DNA from: Melioribacter sp.
Lineage (GTDB): Bacteria; Bacteroidota; Ignavibacteria; Ignavibacteriales; Melioribacteraceae
NCBI GenBank assembly: GCA_026417975.1
Contig: JAOACD010000009.1
Span: 310,001 to 374,000, forward strand
DNA: 64,000 nt
Direction: 5' to 3'
Shown: in pieces, positions 27,421-51,068 of the stretch
Layout of the letters: each line of letters begins with the position of its first letter
Numbering within the stretch: position 1 is the first letter of the stretch
Program-made: the position numbers and the translations under genes
Notes under the pieces: model-generated
Told to the model about the DNA's origin: nothing
The model's input: the letters and a program-made list of their open reading frames with translations, nothing else
The model's database searches: none

Positions 27421-27453
27421 AAAGGCTTTAGAGAATTTTTCTCTAAAGCCTTT
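27421..27453. terminator. Bidirectional terminator between convergent genes
   Basis: AAAGGCTTTAGAGAA-ttt-TTCTCTAAAGCCTTT perfect 15-bp stem. Confidence 0.88.
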
Positions 27454-37573: not shown

Positions 37574-39436
37574 ATGAGAACTAAATGTATGTTAGATAAC
37601 TTAAATATTTCTCGTTTTCTTGTTGTAATTTTATTTTGTTTTTTAACCTTCCGGTTTTATGCTCAGCCATCTGGTGGTCCTTATGGTCCTATTTACCAAG
37701 TTTATGAATTACCTAAAGTTTCTGGTAAAATTTACTTTGTTTCTCCAGATGGAAAAAAGGAAAATTCAGGTGAATCACTTTCTGCTCCAACTACAATTGA
37801 ATCTGCTATCGAAAAAGCAAAAACAGGCGATGCAATAATTCTAAGAGGTGGAATTTATAGAACAGGAAATTTAGTTTTTAATCAAGGAATAATTATCCAA
37901 CCTTATAAAGATGAACAACCAATTTTTAAAGGTACATATATAGCAAAAGAATGGAAAAGTTTGGGAAATGGTTTGTGGATAACAAAATGGGATAGATTAT
38001 TTCCATCAAAACCTGCTGATTGGTGGATGCGCGAAAGAGAAGGCAAAAAAACACCTCTTCATAAATTTAACAATGACATGGTTTTTATTAATGGTAAATT
38101 TTTGCAGTCTGCTGGATGGGAAGGTGAAGTTGATGAAAACTCTTTTTACATCGACTATGATAGAGGAATAGTATATATAGGGACAGATCCAACTAATAAA
38201 CTTGTTGAAATAACAGCCTTTGATGCTGCATTTATTCGTACTACTAAAGAAGTTCATGGTAAAGTTTCTGATAAAAAGGGACCAAAGATTAGGGGGATAA
38301 AATTTACTCAGTATGCCTATAGAGCAATTGAAATTGAAGGAACAGAGCCAGAAGGACCAGCAGATGAAAAAACTTTTGGAAAAGATGTGGTTGGAACTTT
38401 AATAGAAAATTGTGAAATATCATTTTGTTCAAGGGTGGCTGGTTATTTAAGAGGAGATAGTTTAGTAATCCGACACTGTAAAATAAGTGATACAAGCACA
38501 GAAGGAATTTATATTATTAGTTCAAATGATGTTTTATTAGAAAAAAATATCTTTACTAGAAATAACATTGAGAAAATTACTGGATATTACCCAGCTGCGG
38601 TTAAAATTTTTAATCAATGTCATCGTGTGACTTGTAATGATAATTTGGTTATTGATTTACCCTATTCTAATGGCATTTGGTATGACGTAGGAAATGTTGA
38701 TGGAGTTTTTATTAACAACTGGGTAGAAAATGTAGGAAATAATAGAACCCAATTAAATGTTAACCAACCTTGGCCAAGTGATAATGGGTTTTTCTTCGAA
38801 ATTTCTAAAGGAGTAGTATGTGCAGGGAATGTTTTTGTTAACTGTGATCATGGTATTTGGATATTGAATAGTTCTGATGCAAAAATTTTTAACAACACTT
38901 TTATTAATAGTACTGCTTGTATTTCTCGAAACGCAAGAGTTGCAGCAGGTGACCACTTTGGTTGGCATGCAAGTACTGGACCAGATGTTGATAAAAGAGA
39001 AGGACATATTTTTGTTAATAACTTAATGTATGGAGATGAAAATTTTAATAGACCACTCCTTTATGTGTGGCAGCCTGCAATCTTGTGCGAAAAATTAAAG
39101 AAACCTCAGCTTAAAATGCTCGATTATAATATTTATATTCGTCAATCTAATCTGAATAATGACATACTGATCCTATGGAGCCCGGTAAATAATGAAAAAT
39201 GCCTAGCAGAATTAAAGTCTTTAGAAGAGCTAAGAAACCTACTTCCTGAATTTTCTGGTAATTGCAAATATTATTCTGATTATAATTTCCCGATATTTAA
39301 ATCTATTGAACTAAAAGACTTTCATCTACTTAAAGTAATAACTAACTTAGAGAAAGGAATGGCCTTGCCTAAAGAGCTAAAAAAATTTATTCGCAGTAAT
39401 AAAACTTATATAGGTGCTTATCCATTACTAAATTAA
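37574..39436 (+). CDS. Secreted right-handed parallel beta-helix protein
   Basis: N-terminal signal peptide; YFVSPDGKKENSGESLSAPTTIESAIEKAKTGDAIILRGGIYR; repeated N/D-rich helix turns. Confidence 0.85.
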   Translation: MRTKCMLDNLNISRFLVVILFCFLTFRFYAQPSGGPYGPIYQVYELPKVSGKIYFVSPDGKKENSGESLSAPTTIESAIEKAKTGDAIILRGGIYRTGNLVFNQGIIIQPYKDEQPIFKGTYIAKEWKSLGNGLWITKWDRLFPSKPADWWMREREGKKTPLHKFNNDMVFINGKFLQSAGWEGEVDENSFYIDYDRGIVYIGTDPTNKLVEITAFDAAFIRTTKEVHGKVSDKKGPKIRGIKFTQYAYRAIEIEGTEPEGPADEKTFGKDVVGTLIENCEISFCSRVAGYLRGDSLVIRHCKISDTSTEGIYIISSNDVLLEKNIFTRNNIEKITGYYPAAVKIFNQCHRVTCNDNLVIDLPYSNGIWYDVGNVDGVFINNWVENVGNNRTQLNVNQPWPSDNGFFFEISKGVVCAGNVFVNCDHGIWILNSSDAKIFNNTFINSTACISRNARVAAGDHFGWHASTGPDVDKREGHIFVNNLMYGDENFNRPLLYVWQPAILCEKLKKPQLKMLDYNIYIRQSNLNNDILILWSPVNNEKCLAELKSLEELRNLLPEFSGNCKYYSDYNFPIFKSIELKDFHLLKVITNLEKGMALPKELKKFIRSNKTYIGAYPLLN

Positions 39437-39522
39437 AATTTAGCTTTAATTTTTTTATAAAGTTAAATTTAACTTTTTATGCATTGTTATTTATAATTAT
39501 GCAAAAAATTTTTAAATAATAC

Positions 39523-39551
39523 TTGACATAATATTTTTTATCTATTATAAT
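39523..39551 (+). promoter_or_regulatory. Consensus sigma70-type promoter of ilv-leu operon
   Basis: TTGACA (39523-39528), 17-nt spacer, TATAAT (39546-39551). Confidence 0.9.
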
Positions 39552-39563
39552 TGTACAAGAGTT

Positions 39564-39725
39564 ATGAAAGACAATAACAAACATATTGCATTGTTAAAAG
39601 GTCTCGAAGAGCAACATAGGCTCTCAGGTCTAAACTATACAAGAAAGAAAATAGGCACATCTTTAGATATACTTCCTCTAGGGATTACAATCCTAATTAT
39701 CAATCTAATTATAATTCTAGGCTAA
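39564..39725 (+). CDS. Putative Ile/Leu-rich leader peptide of ilv-leu operon (53 aa)
   Basis: ATG...TAA: MKDNNKHIALLKGLEEQHRLSGLNYTRKKIGTSLDILPLGITILIINLIIILG; 13 Ile/Leu in the last 19 residues; just after promoter, upstream of ilvD; too short for the ORF track. Confidence 0.85.
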   Translation: MKDNNKHIALLKGLEEQHRLSGLNYTRKKIGTSLDILPLGITILIINLIIILG

Positions 39726-39809
39726 TATTTATTAGTCAATCCCTAAAATTTTTTTATGAGTTTCAAAATTTAGGGATTGACTAAGTCCCTAAAGTATATC
39801 TAAAGATGT
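39657..39809 (+). promoter_or_regulatory. Attenuator-like region with nested and alternative inverted repeats
   Basis: ACATCTTTAGATATACTT (39657-39674) pairs perfectly with AAGTATATCTAAAGATGT (39792-39809); TTAGTCAATCCCTAAA (39732-39747) pairs perfectly with TTTAGGGATTGACTAA (39769-39784); alternative pairings TAGGGATT/AATCCCTA and TTTAGGGA/TCCCTAAA. Confidence 0.82.
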
Positions 39810-39834
39810 TTAAAATAAAAACGAGAGGTTTAAG

Positions 39835-41517
39835 ATGAGATCGGATTTAATAAAAAAAGGTTTTGATAAAGCTCCTCACAGAAGCCTTCTTAAGGCTACA
39901 GGAGTAATAAAATCTGATGATGATTTTAATAAACCATTCATCGGGATTTGCAATTCTTATATAGATTTAATACCAGGTCATGTACACCTCCAGGAATTCG
40001 GAAAAATAATAAAAGAAGAAGTGCGTAAAGCTGGTGGAGTTCCATTTGAATTTAATACCATTGGTGTAGATGATGGTATAGCAATGGGACATATAGGAAT
40101 GCGATTTTCTTTAGCAAGTAGAGAATTAATTGCTGATAGTTTAGAAACTGTTGTAGAAGCTCATAGACTTGATGGCTTGATATGTATTCCAAACTGCGAT
40201 AAAATTGTGCCTGGTATGCTCATGGGAGCTGCAAGAGTTAATATTCCTACTGTTTTTGTTTCTGGTGGACCGATGAAAGCAGGTTATACCCCTTCAGGCG
40301 AAGTTGTAGATTTAATTTCGGTATTTGAAGGAGTTGGCCAATTTTCAGCAGGAAAAATAGATGAAAAGAAATTAAAAGAGTTGGAAGATTATAGTTGTCC
40401 TACTTGTGGTTCTTGCTCTGGAATGTTTACTGCAAATTCAATGAACTGCTTAATGGAAGCATTAGGAATGGCTTTGCCTGGTAACGGAACAATACTTGCA
40501 GTTGATCCTAAAAGACATGAACTTGCTCGCCAAGCAGCACATAAAATTATGGAATTAATTAAACTTGATTTAAAGCCAAGAGATATTATTACTCGTGAGT
40601 CTATATTAAATGCTTTTGCTTTAGATATGGCAATGGGAGGAAGTACAAATACAATTCTTCATACCATTGCAATTGCAAACGAAGCAGGTATAGAATTTAA
40701 ACTTGAGGAGATTAATAAATTATCAGAGAAGGTACCTTATTTATGTAAGGTTTCGCCTGCTACAAAGTTTGTTCATATAGAAGATGTAGATAGAGCAGGT
40801 GGTGTTTCAGCAATATTAAAAGAACTTTCCAAGCTCGATGGTGTTCTTAATCTTTCTTGTCCAACTGTAACAGGAAAAACTTTGGGAGAAAACATAAAAG
40901 ATGCTGAGATTAAAGATAGGAATGTAATAAGAACAATAGATAATCCATTTCGAAAAACTGGTGGTTTGGCTGTCTTATTTGGTAACTTGGCTCCCAAAGG
41001 TTCAATAGTGAAAACTGGAGCGGTTGAAGAAAATATGTTAGTGTTTAAGGGACCAGCAATTGTATTTAATTCCCAAGATGAAGCAATAGAAGGAATCAGA
41101 AGTGGTAAGGTAAAACCTGGTCATGTTGTTGTTATTCGTTATGAAGGACCAAAAGGCGGTCCAGGAATGCCTGAGATGTTAGCTCCAACTAGTGAAATTA
41201 TGGGAATGGGTTTAGGTGATAAAGTGGCATTAATTACAGATGGAAGATTTTCTGGAGGAACGAGAGGTGCATGTATTGGGCATATATCTCCTGAGGCAGC
41301 AGAGCGAGGCCCTATTGCAGCTCTAAGAGATGGTGATATTATTTCGATTGATATTCCTAATTATTCATTAAATGTAGAGTTAAGTGACGAAGAAATCCAG
41401 AAAAGACTAAGTGAACTTCCTAAGTTTAAACCAAAAATCAATAATGGGTATTTAGGACGTTACTCTAGAATGGTTACATCTGCTCATACAGGAGCAATTT
41501 TAAGTTTGCCAGAATAA
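39835..41517 (+). CDS. ilvD: Dihydroxy-acid dehydratase
   Basis: [45 protein letters not shown]. Confidence 0.98.
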
Positions 41518-41539: not shown

Positions 41540-43258
41540 ATGAATTCAAGAAAAAAAAGTATGACCGGAGCCGATATATTTTTTGAGTGTCTTAGGCGTG
41601 AGGGTGTCGAATATATTTTCGGTTACCCAGGTGGTGCTGTCTTAAAGATTTATGAAAAACTTTACGATATTGATTTTCTCAAACATATACTTGTTCGTCA
41701 CGAACAAGGGGCAACCCATATGGCAGAGGGTTATGCTAAGGCCACAGGAAAAGTAGGAGTCGTTTTAGTAACATCGGGACCAGGAGCAACTAATACAGTT
41801 ACAGGAATAGCAGATGCCTATATGGATTCTGTGCCTATTGTTGTTTTTACAGGTCAGGTACCAACTCATCTAATTGGAAATGATGCTTTTCAGGAAGCTG
41901 ATATTTGTGGAATTACAAGACCTATTACTAAACATAATTTCTTAGTAAGAGATGTTTCTGAACTTGCAACTACAATTAAACAAGCGTTTTATATTGCTTC
42001 TACTGGGAGACCTGGACCTGTAGTTGTTGATTTGCCAAAAAATGTTATTAATAGTATAACTGAATTTGACTATCCTGATAAAATTGAATTAAGAGGATAT
42101 AAACCAAGAGTTCATGGGAACCAAAATCAAATTAAAAAAGCTGCTATGATGATTCAAAAGTCGAAGAGACCTTTGCTTTATGTAGGTGGTGGTGTTATAA
42201 TGTCAGGAGGACATCGTGAATTATATCTTCTTGCAAAAGAAAATAATCTTCCTGTTACAATGACTCTTCAAGGTTTGGGAGCTTTTCCAGGTTCAGACCC
42301 TCAGTCTCTTGGAATGTTAGGAATGCACGGAACTTATTGGGCTAACCAGGCAGTTAATAATTGTGACTTATTGATTTCTCTTGGAGCTAGATTCGATGAT
42401 AGAGTGACAGGTAAAATTGAAACTTTTGCAACAAAAGCCTACAAAATTCATGTCGACATAGATCCAACATGTATTGATAAAAATGTTATAGTTGATTTAC
42501 CAATAGTTGGAGATGTTAAACATGTTATGGCAGAATTAGCAGCAGAAATTTCTGAAAAACCAGATGTTACAGAATGGTGGGAACAAATTCATGCCTGGAA
42601 AGAGGAATGTCCACTTGAGTATGATATGTCTGATGGAAGATTAAGAGCACAATACATCATCGAAAAATTATCTGATCTTACTAAAGGTGATGCTATTGTA
42701 GTTACAGATGTAGGACAGCATCAAATGTGGGTTGCTCAGTACTATAAGTTTAATTATCCTAGAACTCATATTACTAGCGGTGGCTTAGGCACAATGGGTT
42801 TTGCACTTCCTGCATCTATTGGAGTAGCTTTTGCTGTAAAAGATAAGCCGATTTTGTGTATAACTGGCGATGGTGGCTTCCAAATGAATATGCAAGAACT
42901 TGCAACTGCAGCGTATCATAAACTCCCAATAAAAATTTTTATTATAAATAATTCTTTCCTTGGAATGGTTCGTCAATGGCAAGAATTATTTCATGCAGAA
43001 AAATATAGCTTTACCGACTTATCTGATAGCAATCCAGATTTCGTTAAACTAGCAGAAGCATTTGATATTAAAGCTTATTCTGTAAGTAACATTAGCGATG
43101 TAGAACCTGTGCTTAAAGAAGCTTTGTCTTATAACGAAGGACCAATACTCGTTGATTTTAGAGTAGTTAAAGAAGATATGGTCTTTCCAATTGTCCCAGC
43201 CGGGGCTTCAATAAGTGATATGATTATTCGCAGATTAGATCCAAAGGAGATGATGTAA
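41540..43258 (+). CDS. ilvB: Acetolactate synthase large subunit
   Basis: GYPGGAVLKIYEKL; HMAEGYAKATGKVGVVLVTSGPGATN; GDGGFQMNMQEL. Confidence 0.97.
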   Translation: MNSRKKSMTGADIFFECLRREGVEYIFGYPGGAVLKIYEKLYDIDFLKHILVRHEQGATHMAEGYAKATGKVGVVLVTSGPGATNTVTGIADAYMDSVPIVVFTGQVPTHLIGNDAFQEADICGITRPITKHNFLVRDVSELATTIKQAFYIASTGRPGPVVVDLPKNVINSITEFDYPDKIELRGYKPRVHGNQNQIKKAAMMIQKSKRPLLYVGGGVIMSGGHRELYLLAKENNLPVTMTLQGLGAFPGSDPQSLGMLGMHGTYWANQAVNNCDLLISLGARFDDRVTGKIETFATKAYKIHVDIDPTCIDKNVIVDLPIVGDVKHVMAELAAEISEKPDVTEWWEQIHAWKEECPLEYDMSDGRLRAQYIIEKLSDLTKGDAIVVTDVGQHQMWVAQYYKFNYPRTHITSGGLGTMGFALPASIGVAFAVKDKPILCITGDGGFQMNMQELATAAYHKLPIKIFIINNSFLGMVRQWQELFHAEKYSFTDLSDSNPDFVKLAEAFDIKAYSVSNISDVEPVLKEALSYNEGPILVDFRVVKEDMVFPIVPAGASISDMIIRRLDPKEMM

Positions 43259-43259
43259 T

Positions 43260-43790
43260 ATGTTACACGTAATCTCAGCATTAGTAGAAAATAAATTTGG
43301 CGCATTCAACCGTGTTGTTACAATGTTTAGCGCCAAAGGATATAATATTCATTCTATTTCTATTGGAGAGACTGAAGATCCAACAATTTCAAGAATGACC
43401 ATTGTAACTGAAGGTGAAGATAAGGTTATTGAGCAAATTGTAAAACAATTAAACAGATTGATTGATACAATTAAAATTGTTGATCTAACCTATCAGCCTA
43501 AAGTTCAAAGAGAATTACTTTTAATTTCTGTAGGATATCAAAAGGGAACGAGATCTGAAATTATTGACATATGTGAAATTTTTAGAGGAAATGTTGTTGA
43601 TATTAATAACAAAACATTAATGCTTGAAATAACTGGACCCCCAGAAAAAATTGATGCAGCAATTAATGTGCTTGAACCTTATGGAATAAAAGAAATTGCG
43701 AGGTCTGGACTTGTAGCATTAAGAAGAGGCGAGCAAATAAGAAAAAACAAAGGAGAAACAGAAACCAATAAACCAGGAGAATTAAAATGA
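43260..43790 (+). CDS. ilvN: Acetolactate synthase small subunit
   Basis: ACT domain, [29 protein letters not shown]. Confidence 0.95.
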
Positions 43791-44779
43791 AAATTTATTA
43801 TGATTCAGACGCAAACCTTGATATACTTAAAGGTAAAAACTTAGCAGTAATTGGATATGGAAGTCAAGGCCATGCACATGCCCTTAATTTGAAAGATAGT
43901 GGAATGGAAGTAGGTGTTGGTTTAAGAAAAACAAGTGCAAGATGGAAAGAAGCTGAAGATGCTGGATTGAAAGTTTTTACGGTAGAAGAAGCTGCAAAAT
44001 GGGGTGATGTAATAATGATTTTACTCCCCGACCAAAATCATAAAGAAGTTTATGAAAATGAAATTAAACAGCATTTAACCGAAGGGAAAGCTCTTGCTTT
44101 TGCTCATGGATTTAATATTTTTTATAAACAAGTTATTCCTCCAGAAAATGTTGATGTAATTATGATTGCTCCTAAAGGACCTGGGCATCTTGTTCGTCGA
44201 ACTTATCAGCAAGGCAGCGGTACTCCATGTCTAATTGCTATACATCAAGATTATACAGGAAAAGCAAAAGATATTGCTCTTGCATGGGCTAAAGGAATAG
44301 GAGGTACACGTGCTGGAGTAATAGAAACCACGTTTAAAGATGAAACAGAAACAGATTTGTTTGGTGAACAAGCTGTTCTTTGTGGAGGCTCTGCTGAATT
44401 AGTAAAAGCAGGCTTCGAAACATTGGTAGAGGCTGGTTATCCACCAGAGCTTGCTTACTTTGAATGTATGCACGAATTAAAATTAATTGTTGACCTATAT
44501 TATGAAGGCGGACTAACAAGAATGAATTATTCCGTTAGTGATACTGCAGAATATGGAGGAATGACTAGAGGCCCAAAAGTTATTAATGCAGAAACCAAAA
44601 AAATTATGAAACAAATTTTGGAAGATATTCAATCAGGCAGATTTGCAGAAGAATGGATTAATGAAAATAAAAATGGTCAGCCGGTTCTTAAAAAACTAAG
44701 GGAAGAAAATAAAAATCATCTTATTGAAAAAGTTGGAGCTCAGCTCAGAAGTATGATGAGCTGGTTAAGTAATAAATAA
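43787..44779 (+). CDS. ilvC: Ketol-acid reductoisomerase
   Basis: [42 protein letters not shown]. Confidence 0.98.
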
Positions 44780-44802: not shown

Positions 44803-45897
44803 ATGTTTAGTATAACTCTTCTTCCTGGTGATGGAATTGGTCCAGAAGTAACATCTGCAGCTGTCAAAGTCTTAAAAACAGTTGCAGAAAAATTTAATAT
44901 AGAATTTAATTTTAAAACAGAATTAATAGGTGGAGCTTCTTACGATAAATATTCAACACCATTGACTGATGAAGTCTTAAGTCAGTGTTATAGTTCTGAT
45001 GTAGTATTTCTTGGAGCTGTGGGAGGTCCTAAATGGGAAAATTTGCCACATCATCTTAAGCCTGAGGCTGCACTCTTAAAATTACGTAAAGCCTTGGGAC
45101 TTTATGCAAACCTTCGTCCTGCTAAAATTTATAACTCAATGCTTTCATATTCCTCTTTAAAAGAAGAGGTACTTAAAGGAACTGATGTCTTAATTGTAAG
45201 AGAATTAACCGGTGATGCATATTTTGGTGAACCTAGAGGATATGACGAGCAGAAAGGCTTTAATACAATGATTTATACTAAAGAAGAAGTAGAAAGAATT
45301 GCTCGAAAAGCATTTGAACTTGCAAGATTTAGAAATAAAAAAGTTACTTCAGTAGATAAGGCAAATGTTCTTGAAGTCTCTCAATTTTGGAGAAAAGTAG
45401 TTATTGATGTTCATAAAGATTATCAAGATGTAGAATTAAATCATATGTATGTTGATAATGCAGCAATGCAAATTGTACGCTACCCAAAACAGTTTGATGT
45501 AATATTAACTTCAAATTTGTTTGGGGATATTTTAAGCGATATTGCTGCAATGATAACTGGGAGTTTGGGCATGCTTCCTTCTGCAAGTTTAGGCTCTAAA
45601 TATGCATTGTATGAACCTGTTCACGGAAGTGCACCAGATATTGCCGGCAAAGGTATTGCAAATCCGATTGCTGCAATTTCTTCTGTAGCTATGATGCTTA
45701 AATATTCTTTTCAAATGGATAAAGCAGCAGAATTAATTGAAAATTCAATTGAAAATACACTTACTAAAGGTTATAGAACTAAGGATATTTATAAGGAAGG
45801 AGATAAGCTTGTTTCAACTGATGAGATGACAGATAAAATTATCGAGGAGTTTGATAAACTATTTGCAAAAGAGGCTATTAATGTTTTTACGCTTTAA
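44803..45897 (+). CDS. leuB: 3-isopropylmalate dehydrogenase
   Basis: LLPGDGIGPEVT; TSNLFGDILSDIAAMITGSLGMLPSASLG. Confidence 0.97.
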   Translation: MFSITLLPGDGIGPEVTSAAVKVLKTVAEKFNIEFNFKTELIGGASYDKYSTPLTDEVLSQCYSSDVVFLGAVGGPKWENLPHHLKPEAALLKLRKALGLYANLRPAKIYNSMLSYSSLKEEVLKGTDVLIVRELTGDAYFGEPRGYDEQKGFNTMIYTKEEVERIARKAFELARFRNKKVTSVDKANVLEVSQFWRKVVIDVHKDYQDVELNHMYVDNAAMQIVRYPKQFDVILTSNLFGDILSDIAAMITGSLGMLPSASLGSKYALYEPVHGSAPDIAGKGIANPIAAISSVAMMLKYSFQMDKAAELIENSIENTLTKGYRTKDIYKEGDKLVSTDEMTDKIIEEFDKLFAKEAINVFTL

Positions 45898-45985: not shown

Positions 45986-47563
45986 ATGGAGCCGACTAGA
46001 ATATTGATATTTGATACAACATTAAGGGATGGCGAACAATCTCCTGGTGCATCATTAAATGTTCACGAAAAATTAGAGATAGCACATCAGCTTGCAAAGC
46101 TGAATGTAGATGTAATTGAAGCAGGTTTCCCAATTTCTTCACCAGCTCAGTTTGAAGCAGTTAAAAGAATTGCCGAAGAAGTAGACTGTGTTATAGCAGC
46201 TTTAGCTAGAGCAAACGAGAAGGATATTAAAGCAGCTGCTGATGCGCTTTCTCCAGCTCGAAGAAAAAGAATACATACATTTGCAAGCACTTCCGATTAT
46301 CATATATTAGGGAAATTTTCTCATGAAAAATATGGTCGGAATCTTGAGGAAAAAAGAAAAACTATTTTGAAAATGTCTTATGATTCGGTTGCTTATGCAA
46401 AGACTTTTACTGATGATGTAGAATTCTCAGCTGAAGATGCAGGCAGAACAGATATAGGTTATCTTGCAGAAGTTGTAGAAGCAGCAATTGAGGCTGGGGC
46501 TACTACAATCAATATTCCTGATACAACTGGTTATACATTGCCATTTGAATTTGGCAACAAAATTGCAGAATTAAGAAAAAGGGTTAAAAATATAGATAAA
46601 GTTGTTATTAGTGTCCATTGTCATAATGATTTAGGGTTAGCTGTTGCAAATTCTTTGGCTGCAATTCAAAATGGAGCTCGTCAAGTAGAATGCACAATAA
46701 ATGGTATAGGTGAAAGAGCAGGTAATGCTTCTCTTGAAGAAATAGTTATGATTCTAAATGTTAGAAAAGACTTGTTAAATTATTACACAAATATTAACAC
46801 AAGAGAAATTTATAATACAAGTAAAATGGTCTCTGCTTTTACTGGATTACTGGTACAACGCAATAAAGCTATCGTAGGAGAAAATGCCTTTTCGCACGAA
46901 TCTGGGATTCATCAAGATGGAGTACTTAAGAGCCGAGAAACTTATGAAATAATGACACCAGAAAGTGTTGGTATTCCAACAAGTAAAATTGTATTGGGAC
47001 GTCACTCTGGTAGACATGGATTGAAAGTTAGATTGCAGCAATTAGGTTATACAGTTACAGATGAAGAGCTTCAAAAAATTTATGATGCTTTTATAGAATT
47101 AGCAGATAAAAAGAAAGAAGTTTTTGATGATGACCTGAGGATGCTAATGGGCGATGAAATTCAAAAGAAAGATGAAATATATGAATTAGAATACTTGCAT
47201 GTAAATGCTGGAACTAATCTTATTCCAAATGCTGTTGTTAAAATTAAAGTGGGAGATAAAATTCTTGAAGAATCTGCTACAGGAGATGGCCCTGTAGATG
47301 CAGTATTTAATGCTATTGAAAGAGCTCTTTCAATTAAATCCGAACTTGAATCATATCAAGTTAGATCGGTAACAGCAGGAAGAGAAGCAATGGGAGAGGT
47401 GATAGTTCGAATAAGGAGTGGAAGTAAGTCTTTTATGGGACGTGGAATTTCAACTGATATTATTGAGGCTAGTGCAAAAGCATACTTAAATGCTCTAAAT
47501 CAAAAAGAGCAATTTGTTAAACAAGAAGAAGCTAAAGTAGAAAAAATTTCAGAAGTAATATAA
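45986..47563 (+). CDS. leuA: 2-isopropylmalate synthase
   Basis: FDTTLRDGEQSPGASLNVHEKLEIA; HCHNDLGLAVANSLAAIQNGARQVECTINGIGERAGN. Confidence 0.97.
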   Translation: MEPTRILIFDTTLRDGEQSPGASLNVHEKLEIAHQLAKLNVDVIEAGFPISSPAQFEAVKRIAEEVDCVIAALARANEKDIKAAADALSPARRKRIHTFASTSDYHILGKFSHEKYGRNLEEKRKTILKMSYDSVAYAKTFTDDVEFSAEDAGRTDIGYLAEVVEAAIEAGATTINIPDTTGYTLPFEFGNKIAELRKRVKNIDKVVISVHCHNDLGLAVANSLAAIQNGARQVECTINGIGERAGNASLEEIVMILNVRKDLLNYYTNINTREIYNTSKMVSAFTGLLVQRNKAIVGENAFSHESGIHQDGVLKSRETYEIMTPESVGIPTSKIVLGRHSGRHGLKVRLQQLGYTVTDEELQKIYDAFIELADKKKEVFDDDLRMLMGDEIQKKDEIYELEYLHVNAGTNLIPNAVVKIKVGDKILEESATGDGPVDAVFNAIERALSIKSELESYQVRSVTAGREAMGEVIVRIRSGSKSFMGRGISTDIIEASAKAYLNALNQKEQFVKQEEAKVEKISEVI

Positions 47564-47575
47564 AGGGTGTTATAA

Positions 47576-48871
47576 ATGGGAATGACTATAACAGAAAAAA
47601 TACTTGCAAAGGCATCTGGTAGAAAAAGAGTAGAACCAGGTGAAAATATATGGTTAAATGTTGATGTGTTAATGACTCATGATGTTTGTGGTCCACCAAC
47701 TATAGAGATATGGAAAAGAGAATTTGGAGATAAAGCAAAAATATGGGATAAGAAAAAACTTGTAATTTTCCCTGACCATTATATATTTACTAAAAATCCA
47801 CAAGCAAATAGGAATGTAAATATTCTTAGAGAATTTGCTAAAGAGTATGATTTACCAAATTACTATGATGTTGGTACCGAAAGGTATAAAGGCGTATGTC
47901 ATATTGCATTAGCAGAAGAAGGATATAATTTACCAGGAAAAGTTTTATTTGGCACAGATTCTCATACTTGTACTTCTGGAGCTTTTGGAATGTTTTCTAC
48001 TGGTGTTGGAAATACAGATGCTGCTTTTATACTGGGGACTGGAAAAATTTGGGAAAAAGTACCCGAATCCTTAAAGTTCATTTTTGAAGGCGAACTACCG
48101 CATTACTTAACAGCAAAAGATCTAATCCTTCAGGTGCTTGGCGATATAACTACCGAAGGTGGTACTTATAGAGCATTAGAGTTTGATGGAGAAGCAATAT
48201 ATTCTATGCAAATGGATGAAAGAATGACCTTAACCAATATGGCTATTGAAGCAGGTGCGATGAATGGAATTATCAAAGCTGACGAAATAACAGAAAAGTA
48301 TGTAAGGGAACGAACAAATGAGCCATACGAAATTTTTGAAAGCGATCCAGATGCAAAATACAGGGCAATCTATAAATACAATGTAGAAGAAATTGAACCT
48401 CTTGTTGCTAAACCACATAGCCCTGATAATAGAGATACAGTTAGAAATGTTCAGGGGACAAAACTTACTAAATGCTATATTGGCTCTTGTACAGGTGGTA
48501 AGTTAACAGATTTTGTCAATGCTGCTAAAATTATTTTTGGTAATAAAGTTAAAGTACCAACATTTATCGTTCCTGCAAGCACTTATGTTTATAATCAACT
48601 AGAAGTAGAAACAATAAATGGAGTATCTTTAAAACAAATATTTGAGGATGCAGGATGCGTAATAGCTCCATCTTCATGTGCAGCATGTCTAGGAGGTCCT
48701 GCAGATACTGTAGGAAGAGCTCAAGATGGTGAGGTAGTAATCTCTACAACAAATAGAAATTTCCCTGGAAGAATGGGAAGCAAGAAATCTGAAGTTTATC
48801 TTGCATCACCTTTTACTGTTGCTGCTTCTGCAGTTACTGGCGTAATCACAGATCCTAGAGAATTTTTATAA
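47576..48871 (+). CDS. leuC: 3-isopropylmalate dehydratase large subunit (homoaconitase/archaeal-type family)
   Basis: FGTDSHTCTSGAFGMFSTGVGNTDAA; YIGSCTGGKLTDF; 431 aa short form. Confidence 0.95.
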   Translation: MGMTITEKILAKASGRKRVEPGENIWLNVDVLMTHDVCGPPTIEIWKREFGDKAKIWDKKKLVIFPDHYIFTKNPQANRNVNILREFAKEYDLPNYYDVGTERYKGVCHIALAEEGYNLPGKVLFGTDSHTCTSGAFGMFSTGVGNTDAAFILGTGKIWEKVPESLKFIFEGELPHYLTAKDLILQVLGDITTEGGTYRALEFDGEAIYSMQMDERMTLTNMAIEAGAMNGIIKADEITEKYVRERTNEPYEIFESDPDAKYRAIYKYNVEEIEPLVAKPHSPDNRDTVRNVQGTKLTKCYIGSCTGGKLTDFVNAAKIIFGNKVKVPTFIVPASTYVYNQLEVETINGVSLKQIFEDAGCVIAPSSCAACLGGPADTVGRAQDGEVVISTTNRNFPGRMGSKKSEVYLASPFTVAASAVTGVITDPREFL

Positions 48872-48888
48872 AAAAATGGGAATTAATC

Positions 48889-49446
48889 ATGGAAAAAATT
48901 GTAAAAGGAAAAGCATTTGTATTAGGTGATAATATTGACACCGATCAAATAATTCCGGCTGAACATTTAGTATATAGCTTAAGTGATCCTGAAGAATCAA
49001 AAAAGTATGGTCATTTTGCACTCTCTGGTGTACCCCTTAAAAATTCAGGATTGCCAGATGGAGGAATTCCATTTATTGATGGTGATAACTATCAATCGAA
49101 ATATAACATTATTATTGCTGGTTCTAATTTTGGTTGTGGTTCTTCAAGAGAACATGCCCCCTTTGCTCTTCAAATGGCTGGAGTTAAAGTAATAGTTGCA
49201 GAATCTTATGCAAGAATTTTTTATCGCAATTGTGTTGATGGTGGATTTGCAATACCATATGAAACACCTATCAAATTAAATGACAAAATTAAAACTAATG
49301 ATGAACTTGAAATTGATTTAAATAGTAACACTCTAAAAAATTTAACAACAGGTGAAATATATAAATTAAATCCTCTTGGAGATATTTTACCTATTATTGA
49401 AGCAGGAAATATTTTTGAATATGCAAGAATGAATAACATGATTTGA
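48889..49446 (+). CDS. leuD: 3-isopropylmalate dehydratase small subunit
   Basis: GDNIDTDQIIPAEHL; GSNFGCGSSREHAPFAL. Confidence 0.96.
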   Translation: MEKIVKGKAFVLGDNIDTDQIIPAEHLVYSLSDPEESKKYGHFALSGVPLKNSGLPDGGIPFIDGDNYQSKYNIIIAGSNFGCGSSREHAPFALQMAGVKVIVAESYARIFYRNCVDGGFAIPYETPIKLNDKIKTNDELEIDLNSNTLKNLTTGEIYKLNPLGDILPIIEAGNIFEYARMNNMI

Positions 49447-49481: not shown

Positions 49482-51068
49482 ATGTTTATTGAAATATTTG
49501 ATACTACATTAAGAGATGGGACACAGGCCGAAGGCGTAAGCCTTTCAGTGCAGGATAAATTACTGATTGCGAAAAAACTAGATGAATTTGGTATTGATAT
49601 TATTGAGGGTGGTTGGCCTGGTAGCAATCCGAAAGACGAAGAATTTTTTAAACAGGCAAAGAATTTAAATCTAAGCCATGCTAAATTAACATCATTTGGC
49701 TCAACTGCTAGGTCTTTATCAGATATTGAAGGCGATTATAATCTAAATACACTTTTAAAATCAGAAACACCAATTATTACAATCTTTGGTAAAACTTGGC
49801 AATTACATTCTCAAAAAGCATTAGGACTTTCGGATGAAGAAAATGCAGAACTTATTTTCAAGTCTGTAAAATTTCTTAGATCTCATGTTGATAGAGTTAT
49901 ATTTGACGCTGAACATTTTTTTGATGGATATAAGGATAACCCAGAATTTGCAATGAAAATGCTTAAAGCTGCAGTAGAAGGTGGTGCTGATACTTTAGTT
50001 TTATGTGATACAAATGGTGGTTCACTACCAGAAGAAGTTTATAAAATAGTTTCTGAAGTTAAAAAGAATTTTAATTTAACAATTGGAATTCATGCTCATA
50101 ACGATGCTGAACTTGCGGTTGCAAATTCTCTTGCAGCAGTTAATGCTGGTGCTACTCATGTTCATGGAACTATAAATGGAGTGGGAGAACGATGTGGTAA
50201 TGCAAATTTATGCAGTATTATTCCAAATCTTCTTCTAAAATTAAATTATGAAACAAATCAGAAAAAAAATTTACAACAGTTAACATCATTATCAAATTAT
50301 GTATACGAATTAATGAATATTCATCCAAATACAAGAAGTGCTTACACAGGGAAATCAGCATTTGCTCATAAAGGCGGTGTTCATGTTAGTGCTGTAATGA
50401 AAGATAGTAGAATGTATGAACATATCCAACCAGAATTAGTAGGAAATAAGCAAAGAGTTTTAATTTCAGATTTATCTGGTCAAAGTAATATTAAGTATAA
50501 GGCTAAAGAAGTAGGAATTGATATTTCTGACGATAAAGAGTTAAGTAAGAGATTAGTTAATTATATAAAATCACTTGAATATGATGGCTATCAATTTGAC
50601 GGAGCTGAGGCTTCTTTTGAATTATTGTTTAGAACAGAAACTAATGAGTTTTCTCCATTCTTTAGACTTGTTGATGCAAAGGTGAATGTATTTTATGATG
50701 ATGATGGACACACATCATCCGAGGCTGTTTTAAAAATTGAAGTAAATAATGAAATAGAACATACAGCAGCAGATGGTAATGGACCAGTTAATGCACTAGA
50801 CTCTGCACTAAGGAAAGCATTACTTAGATTTTATCCTGAAATTGCTAATATAAAATTAGTTGATTATAAAGTTCGAGTTCTTGATGAAAAAGAAGGAACA
50901 GCTGCAAAAGTAAGAGTAATGATAGAATCAAGTGATGGAGTTGATACATGGGGAACTGTAGGAGTTTCTACAAATATTATCGAAGCAAGTTTTAAAGCAT
51001 TAAGCGATAGCATAAATTATTGTTTGTTTAAGAAGTATAGAAATAAACAAGAAGTTGCGAAATCATAA
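49482..51068 (+). CDS. cimA: Citramalate synthase
   Basis: IFDTTLRDGTQAEGVSLSVQDKLLIAKKLDEFGIDIIEGGWPGSNPKD, typical of the CimA branch of the IPMS superfamily. Confidence 0.93.
   Translation: MFIEIFDTTLRDGTQAEGVSLSVQDKLLIAKKLDEFGIDIIEGGWPGSNPKDEEFFKQAKNLNLSHAKLTSFGSTARSLSDIEGDYNLNTLLKSETPIITIFGKTWQLHSQKALGLSDEENAELIFKSVKFLRSHVDRVIFDAEHFFDGYKDNPEFAMKMLKAAVEGGADTLVLCDTNGGSLPEEVYKIVSEVKKNFNLTIGIHAHNDAELAVANSLAAVNAGATHVHGTINGVGERCGNANLCSIIPNLLLKLNYETNQKKNLQQLTSLSNYVYELMNIHPNTRSAYTGKSAFAHKGGVHVSAVMKDSRMYEHIQPELVGNKQRVLISDLSGQSNIKYKAKEVGIDISDDKELSKRLVNYIKSLEYDGYQFDGAEASFELLFRTETNEFSPFFRLVDAKVNVFYDDDGHTSSEAVLKIEVNNEIEHTAADGNGPVNALDSALRKALLRFYPEIANIKLVDYKVRVLDEKEGTAAKVRVMIESSDGVDTWGTVGVSTNIIEASFKALSDSINYCLFKKYRNKQEVAKS

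Follow-up and report, generated by a model that had tools for sequence, protein, structure and literature searches.

Upstream of an operon for branched-chain amino acid biosynthesis, a Melioribacteraceae (Ignavibacteria) genome carries a short open reading frame (ORF) ending in a run of Ile and Leu codons and a set of long RNA pairings nested around its stop codon. The locus, analyzed here within a window of 64 kb (the whole stretch of DNA under study), raises the question of whether these elements constitute a leader that senses amino acid supply and, if so, by which output it acts. We consider it probable (roughly 0.68) that they form a ribosome-mediated attenuator of the operon with an unusual nested geometry and, judging from sequence comparisons and folding models, with termination of transcription as its output.

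The operon and its leader ORF

The genes follow the order ilvD-ilvB-ilvN-ilvC-leuB-leuA-leuC-leuD-cimA, and the nearest named relatives of the IlvD protein are those of Melioribacter roseus and other Ignavibacteria. The assignments given below come from NCBIfam profile searches, except that of the probable leuD, which had no NCBIfam match at the strict threshold used and is assigned by its position and a reading of its sequence.

39835-41517, + strand: ilvD, dihydroxy-acid dehydratase
41540-43258, + strand: ilvB, acetolactate synthase large subunit
43260-43790, + strand: ilvN, acetolactate synthase small subunit
43787-44779, + strand: ilvC, ketol-acid reductoisomerase
44803-45897, + strand: leuB, 3-isopropylmalate dehydrogenase
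45986-47563, + strand: leuA, 2-isopropylmalate synthase
47576-48871, + strand: leuC-type 3-isopropylmalate dehydratase large subunit (subfamily models above cut-off)
48889-49446, + strand: probable leuD, dehydratase small subunit
49482-51068, + strand: citramalate synthase (cimA type)

The ilvD gene is preceded by a short leader ORF in which codons for the operon's own amino acids abound, with a predicted promoter directly upstream of it.

39523-39551, + strand: predicted sigma-70-type promoter, TTGACA-17-TATAAT, matching 12/12 consensus bases
39564-39725, + strand: leader ORF of 53 codons, MKDNNKHIALLKGLEEQHRLSGLNYTRKKIGTSLDILPLGITILIINLIIILG, with its TAA stop codon at 39723-39725
39663-39722, + strand: Ile/Leu control-codon run, with Leu mostly as CTA, defined by composition and codon counts

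The Ile/Leu run forms the tail of the ORF, LDILPLGITILIINLIIILG. Homologous leader ORFs in relatives have 45 to 59 codons, of which the last 20 comprise 38% Ile, 27% Leu, and 6% Val; these tails include some Val and Gly and are almost devoid of Phe, Ala, Trp, and Met. The codon CTA accounts for 49% of Leu codons in the tails of the relatives versus 9% in the ilv/leu and neighboring genes of the window, a baseline drawn from seven genes. Nearly all of 49 relatives have a promoter of the CTTGACA...TAt type directly upstream of the start of the leader. In the window, a second promoter-like match, TTAACT-17-TATAAT (10/12), is found upstream of the consensus promoter at 39469-39497.

Phyletic spread of the leader

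Most relatives share the same layout upstream of ilvD, namely, the promoter, the Ile/Leu-tailed ORF, GGTCAATCCC, an A-rich spacer, GGGRTTGACC, TCTGAAGA, and a Shine-Dalgarno sequence, and in the leaders compared the stop codon of the ORF lies 96 to 138 nt before the gene. A covariance model of the leader (R1) matches 71 of the 164 genomes of the order, representing 36 of its 68 genera, with few matches elsewhere in the phylum sample. Among the loci inspected, the gene following the leader is mostly ilvD and, where the arrangement differs, ilvB (genus g50, G292, and G591, the last from another family with an E value of 0.003) or leuB (G004).

Second copies of the leader in four genomes (G016, G036, G740, and G748), which look duplicated or decayed, were left out of the evidence. 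Those of G016 (L194) and G036 (L197) lie upstream of glutamate-synthase-like genes; the former still has a truncated IlvD start (MRSDLIN) attached, and the Ile/Leu run of the latter appears degraded. In genus g50 (L038, L039, L040, L042, L201, and L202), where ilvD is absent, the leader is followed by an ORF of 56 to 67 codons and then by ilvB. This ORF begins VRSxxKYxGYxxTSKRS..., resembling the IlvD N terminus, and in L038 it has an Ile-rich tail (NINIIIILSIIILSI) followed by another possible hairpin; it may be a remnant of ilvD reused as a second leader. A different leader precedes ilvD in a family from another order of the class (f5; L142 and L144 to L150), with a Leu/Ile tail (e.g., LTLILSLLLVLSLIIVG), a GCCAGAGG/CCTCTGGC hairpin 3' of the stop codon, and, in the ORF, an AGCCTC box for which several of these leaders offer GAGGCT as a possible partner.

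Nested and alternative pairings around the leader stop codon

The elements that can pair with each other extend from the first control codons to a point just upstream of the ilvD ribosome site.

39657-39674, + strand: segment 1 (S1), 5' arm of the outer clamp, within the ORF (complementarity and comparative tests)
39679-39686, + strand: box A, TAGGGATT, within the ORF, which can pair with segment 2 (A:B) or with 39784-39791 (A:D), the latter extending the clamp
39732-39747, + strand: segment 2 (B), with the consensus GGTCAATCCC(T)AA in the alignment
39749-39755, + strand: T7 run 3' of segment 2, essentially private to the window genome
39769-39784, + strand: segment 3 (C), with the consensus TTAGGGRTTGACC in the alignment
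39786-39793, + strand: box D, TCCCTAAA, which in masked folding can pair with segment 3 when the ribosome is at the stop codon
39792-39809, + strand: segment 4 (S4), 3' arm of the outer clamp, with the consensus TATCTGAAGA (complementarity and comparative tests)
39822-39828, + strand: Shine-Dalgarno-like CGAGAGG of ilvD (sequence and folding)

All of the complementarities named in the original prediction are present. Segments 1 and 4 are perfect complements over 18 nt, segments 2 and 3 are perfect complements over 16 nt and extendable past a bulge, TAGGGATT is complementary to AATCCCTA at 39738-39745 within segment 2, and TTTAGGGA at 39769-39776 within segment 3 is complementary to TCCCTAAA; the T7 run is likewise where it had been placed. 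With the span limited to 160 nt, no other perfect inverted repeat of the window is as long as either the 18-nt or the 16-nt pair. In 30 first-order Markov sequences of the window's length, there were no inverted repeats of at least 16 nt and a mean of 0.17 of at least 14 nt. The sole further perfect inverted repeat of at least 14 nt in the window (span, 160 nt) is AAAGGCTTTAGAGAA, of 15 nt, at 27421-27453.

The pairings had also been described as mutually exclusive. This is true of 2:3 versus TAGGGATT:segment 2 and of 2:3 versus segment 3:TCCCTAAA but not of 1:4 and 2:3, which are nested and compatible. When the RNA is folded freely, box A pairs with 39784-39791 and lengthens the clamp. A search of Rfam recovered only tRNAs in the window and nothing near the gathering score in 39500-39900, where T-box, riboswitch, and known leader models were unmatched.

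Evolutionary support for the pairings

As expected under the original prediction, comparison of the homologous leaders revealed compensatory changes for 1:4, for 2:3, and, more weakly, for TAGGGATT:segment 2. Duplexes formed within a species are better than those formed across species, with z scores of -8.8 for 1:4, -9.0 for 2:3, and -4.7 for TAGGGATT:segment 2, versus -1.7 to +0.3 for four control pairings. When the 15,753 six-pair helices possible in an alignment of 52 sequences were scanned blindly, 1:4 came out at rank 1 in two-sided covariation, 2:3 at rank 1 in pairing, and TAGGGATT:segment 2 at rank 4 in pairing. Sliding the arms out of register in an alignment of 37 sequences gave a concordant picture: the cells of 1:4 and 2:3 are 74.7% paired in register versus 30 to 48% when slid, two-sided changed cells number 80 versus 24 to 40, and TAGGGATT:segment 2 is 91% paired versus 19 to 59%.

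We also counted two-sided changes from one pair to another on a tree of the IlvD protein, which is independent of the leader sequence. There were 11 such events for 1:4 (0 to 9 in slid registers), 13 for 2:3 (0 to 3), and 5 for TAGGGATT:segment 2 (0 to 2); the margin for 1:4 is modest, with two slid registers reaching 8 and 9 events. Comparative support is weaker for segment 3:TCCCTAAA and for TAGGGATT:39784-39791 in the duplex test, the helix scan, and the alignment. In an R-scape-style per-column test over the whole alignment, with substitutions redistributed on the tree, the best pair, which belongs to 2:3, has an E value of about 1; this reflects short, conserved arms in an alignment made up largely of variable spacers. 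RNAalifold, applied to the alignment, predicted 2:3 and did not predict 1:4.

Predicted effect of ribosome position on the fold

We modeled the ribosome as a mask during folding, with an assumed footprint of about 31 nt and with kinetics and pseudoknots lying outside the model. The original prediction held that a ribosome stalled in the Ile/Leu run masks segment 1. In the window, placing it at 39663, 39669, or 39672 abolishes 1:4, and at 39678 this pairing is nearly gone, with 2:3 retained at about 0.9. The effect is confined to the first Ile/Leu codons (about 39663-39678); for later stalls 1:4 stays, and from 39693 onward its probability is again at least 0.98. The companion claim, that segment 2 is partly masked once the ribosome has reached the stop codon, was borne out in the folding: 2:3 falls to 0.15 and 1:4 stays at 0.96, with TAGGGATT:segment 2 at 0.50 and segment 3:TCCCTAAA at 0.53 inside the intact clamp. 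Across 52 leaders, 2:3 survives the early stall in 45 and the stop-codon position in 9, and 1:4 survives the stop-codon position in 29. The loss of 1:4 upon stalling follows in part from the procedure itself, in which segment 1 is under the mask; what is informative is the location of segment 1 among the first control codons and of 2:3 outside them. The locus combines evolutionarily supported alternative pairings with a predicted dependence of these pairings on ribosome position.

On the basis of these patterns, we propose the following sequence of events. Transcription would begin just upstream of the 53-codon leader ORF, the last ~20 codons of which are Ile and Leu, with CTA, a codon of low local frequency, specifying most of the Leu. 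Segment 1 together with TAGGGATT, as the 5' side of the outer stem, would fall within the first Ile/Leu codons, and segment 4 just before the ilvD ribosome site. We infer the charging of Ile- and Leu-tRNAs to be the signal. When these are abundant, the ribosome would clear segment 1 and stop at the stop codon, where it would open 2:3 and, within the clamp, favor the pairings TAGGGATT:segment 2 and segment 3:TCCCTAAA; the freed segment 1 would form the 1:4 closing stem, which in many relatives is followed by a U-run, and transcription would end before ilvD. When Ile or Leu is scarce, a ribosome stalling on the first Ile/Leu codons would cover segment 1 and then TAGGGATT, preventing 1:4 and leaving the 2:3 hairpin alone, and the polymerase would read into the operon.

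Termination as the probable output

The original prediction saw no strong U-run after segment 4 and left the output open among termination, mRNA stability, and translation control. The former statement holds for the window (TTAAAATAAAAACG), in which the bases 3' of segment 4 are TTAAAATAAAA, and its own clade likewise lacks a run, but it does not hold for many relatives. A run of five to eight T's (T5 to T8) follows segment 4 within 0 to 3 nt in 11/37 relatives (about 30%), versus 0.67 expected, and runs of T5 or longer are rare elsewhere between the leader stop codon and the gene start; about 70% of the relatives with a recognizable segment 4 have no T5 run there. Given this enrichment, 1:4 is most likely the closing stem of an intrinsic terminator between the ORF and the first gene, and termination becomes the leading output. 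Since the clade of the window genome lacks the U-run, termination in that genome is predicted by extension from the relatives. A standard terminator scan of 39400-39900, limited to loops of 3 to 8 nt, found none.

It is also conceivable, although we regard it as improbable, that the leader peptide senses Ile and Leu and the RNA switch sets the translation of ilvD or the stability of the mRNA, with 1:4 serving as a structural cap upstream of the initiation site. Such a role would fit the lack of a U-run after segment 4 in the window and most relatives and the position of the clamp, which ends only 12 nt from the Shine-Dalgarno sequence. Moreover, a CAGAGG-type segment before the start codon can pair with segment 4 in 17/34 relatives (z of -2.4 in the duplex test); this pairing, however, would form under starvation, which is the wrong direction. 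The predicted access of the ilvD ribosome site is also about equal in the free, stalled, and stop-codon states, at 0.64 to 0.70 in the window and at means of 0.28 to 0.33 in the relatives, where it rises in 13 of the 52 leaders and falls in 8. This constancy argues against simple translational masking, and sequestration of the Shine-Dalgarno sequence was rejected for want of a systematic change in access in the window and the 52 leaders. The enrichment of T-runs at segment 4 would also have no explanation if translation or stability were the output.

A less probable arrangement still is one in which the terminator of the window is an early hairpin, TAGGGATT:AATCCCTA followed by the T7 run (39749-39755); the stalled ribosome would mask the 5' arm of this hairpin, and the outer clamp would play a secondary part. 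The region 39675-39756 does fold into a hairpin of -14.9 kcal/mol ending three bases before the T7 run, TAGGGATT:segment 2 has comparative support, and a stalled ribosome would cover 39679-39686. Yet the T7 run is essentially private to the window genome, other leaders having at this site no such run but only a few T5 runs in the spacer, and neither the well-supported 1:4 nor the T-runs that follow segment 4 in relatives would be accounted for; the terminator scan, too, is silent on this hairpin, but it allows only loops of 3 to 8 nt. The T7 run was accordingly rejected as a conserved terminator; in the window genome the early hairpin could terminate by virtue of it, a possibility for which the relatives give no support.

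Finally, a reading of the ORF as the gene of a conserved small membrane protein, with the RNA pairings a by-product of sequence conservation, is highly improbable. A hydrophobic tail of about 20 residues would suit such a protein, but this tail consists of Ile and Leu with some Val and Gly and almost no Phe, Ala, Trp, or Met, prefers uncommon CTA codons, and varies in length, and the ORF has no NCBIfam match, sits 96 to 138 nt before the gene in the relatives compared, and has a coding arm with which the noncoding arms covary.

Relationship to known attenuators

Attenuation by branched-chain leader peptides is documented in Proteobacteria, Actinobacteria, and Firmicutes. Our literature search, which covered few subscription papers, retrieved no report of it for Ignavibacteria. 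The ilv, leu, and trp attenuators of Escherichia coli are four-segment leaders in which a 3:4 hairpin is directly followed by a U-run. The attenuator proposed here resembles them in its promoter-proximal ORF with cognate codons and in competing pairings that the ribosome can select, with TAGGGATT, segment 2, segment 3, and TCCCTAAA corresponding to E. coli segments 1, 2, 3, and 4. As the original prediction had recognized, a 1:4 clamp around 2:3 is not the textbook design: the would-be 3:4 hairpin is weakly supported and is followed by segment 4 rather than directly by a U-run, T is depleted after segment 3, and the best-supported element is an extra one, the outer clamp. The E. coli pyrBI attenuator, which senses UTP through polymerase pausing, offers a parallel in that a ribosome on the leader ORF blocks the terminator by directly covering its 5' side; the Ignavibacteria leader differs from it in having amino acid codons and a nested 2:3 alternative.

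A further likeness in layout is to the ilvD leader of Staphylococcus aureus, where a short Ile/Leu-rich ORF also lies upstream of ilvD in an ilv-leu operon (PMC5794164). That leader encodes a 26-aa peptide, with a terminator hairpin that has a poly-U tail and lies 52 nt past the stop codon of the peptide, and reporter and mutant evidence supports Leu-dependent attenuation, with starvation leading to read-through (PMC5794164). Unlike in S. aureus, the terminator-like stem of the leader described here uses the control codons as its 5' arm and encloses a competing hairpin. The Corynebacterium ilvB-II, ilvB-OMG, and Leptospira ilvB motifs are likewise structured RNAs that contain a branched-chain-rich leader ORF, in their case upstream of ilvB, and attenuation has been proposed or shown for them (PMC10272879). 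They occur in different lineages and mostly before a different first gene.

We tentatively entertain the further possibility, doubtful as it is at present, that these features define a distinct Ignavibacteria attenuator, in which the control codons form one arm of a long-range closing stem (a terminator or a clamp) that encloses a complete smaller switch. The position of the ribosome would then be read twice, with an early stall breaking the outer stem and arrival at the stop codon re-pairing the inner switch; where the U-run is lacking, as in the window, the clamp would work by another route.

Significance

The leader is present in at least 36 genera and is divergent enough for its pairings to be tested by comparison. 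If the nested design is true, having the control codons double as the 5' arm of the terminator would give a stalled ribosome a simpler means of blocking termination. The divergence of the U-run within one family would open a way to study how the output signal of an attenuator is altered or lost, and the design of the leader can be checked in cultivated species such as Melioribacter roseus.
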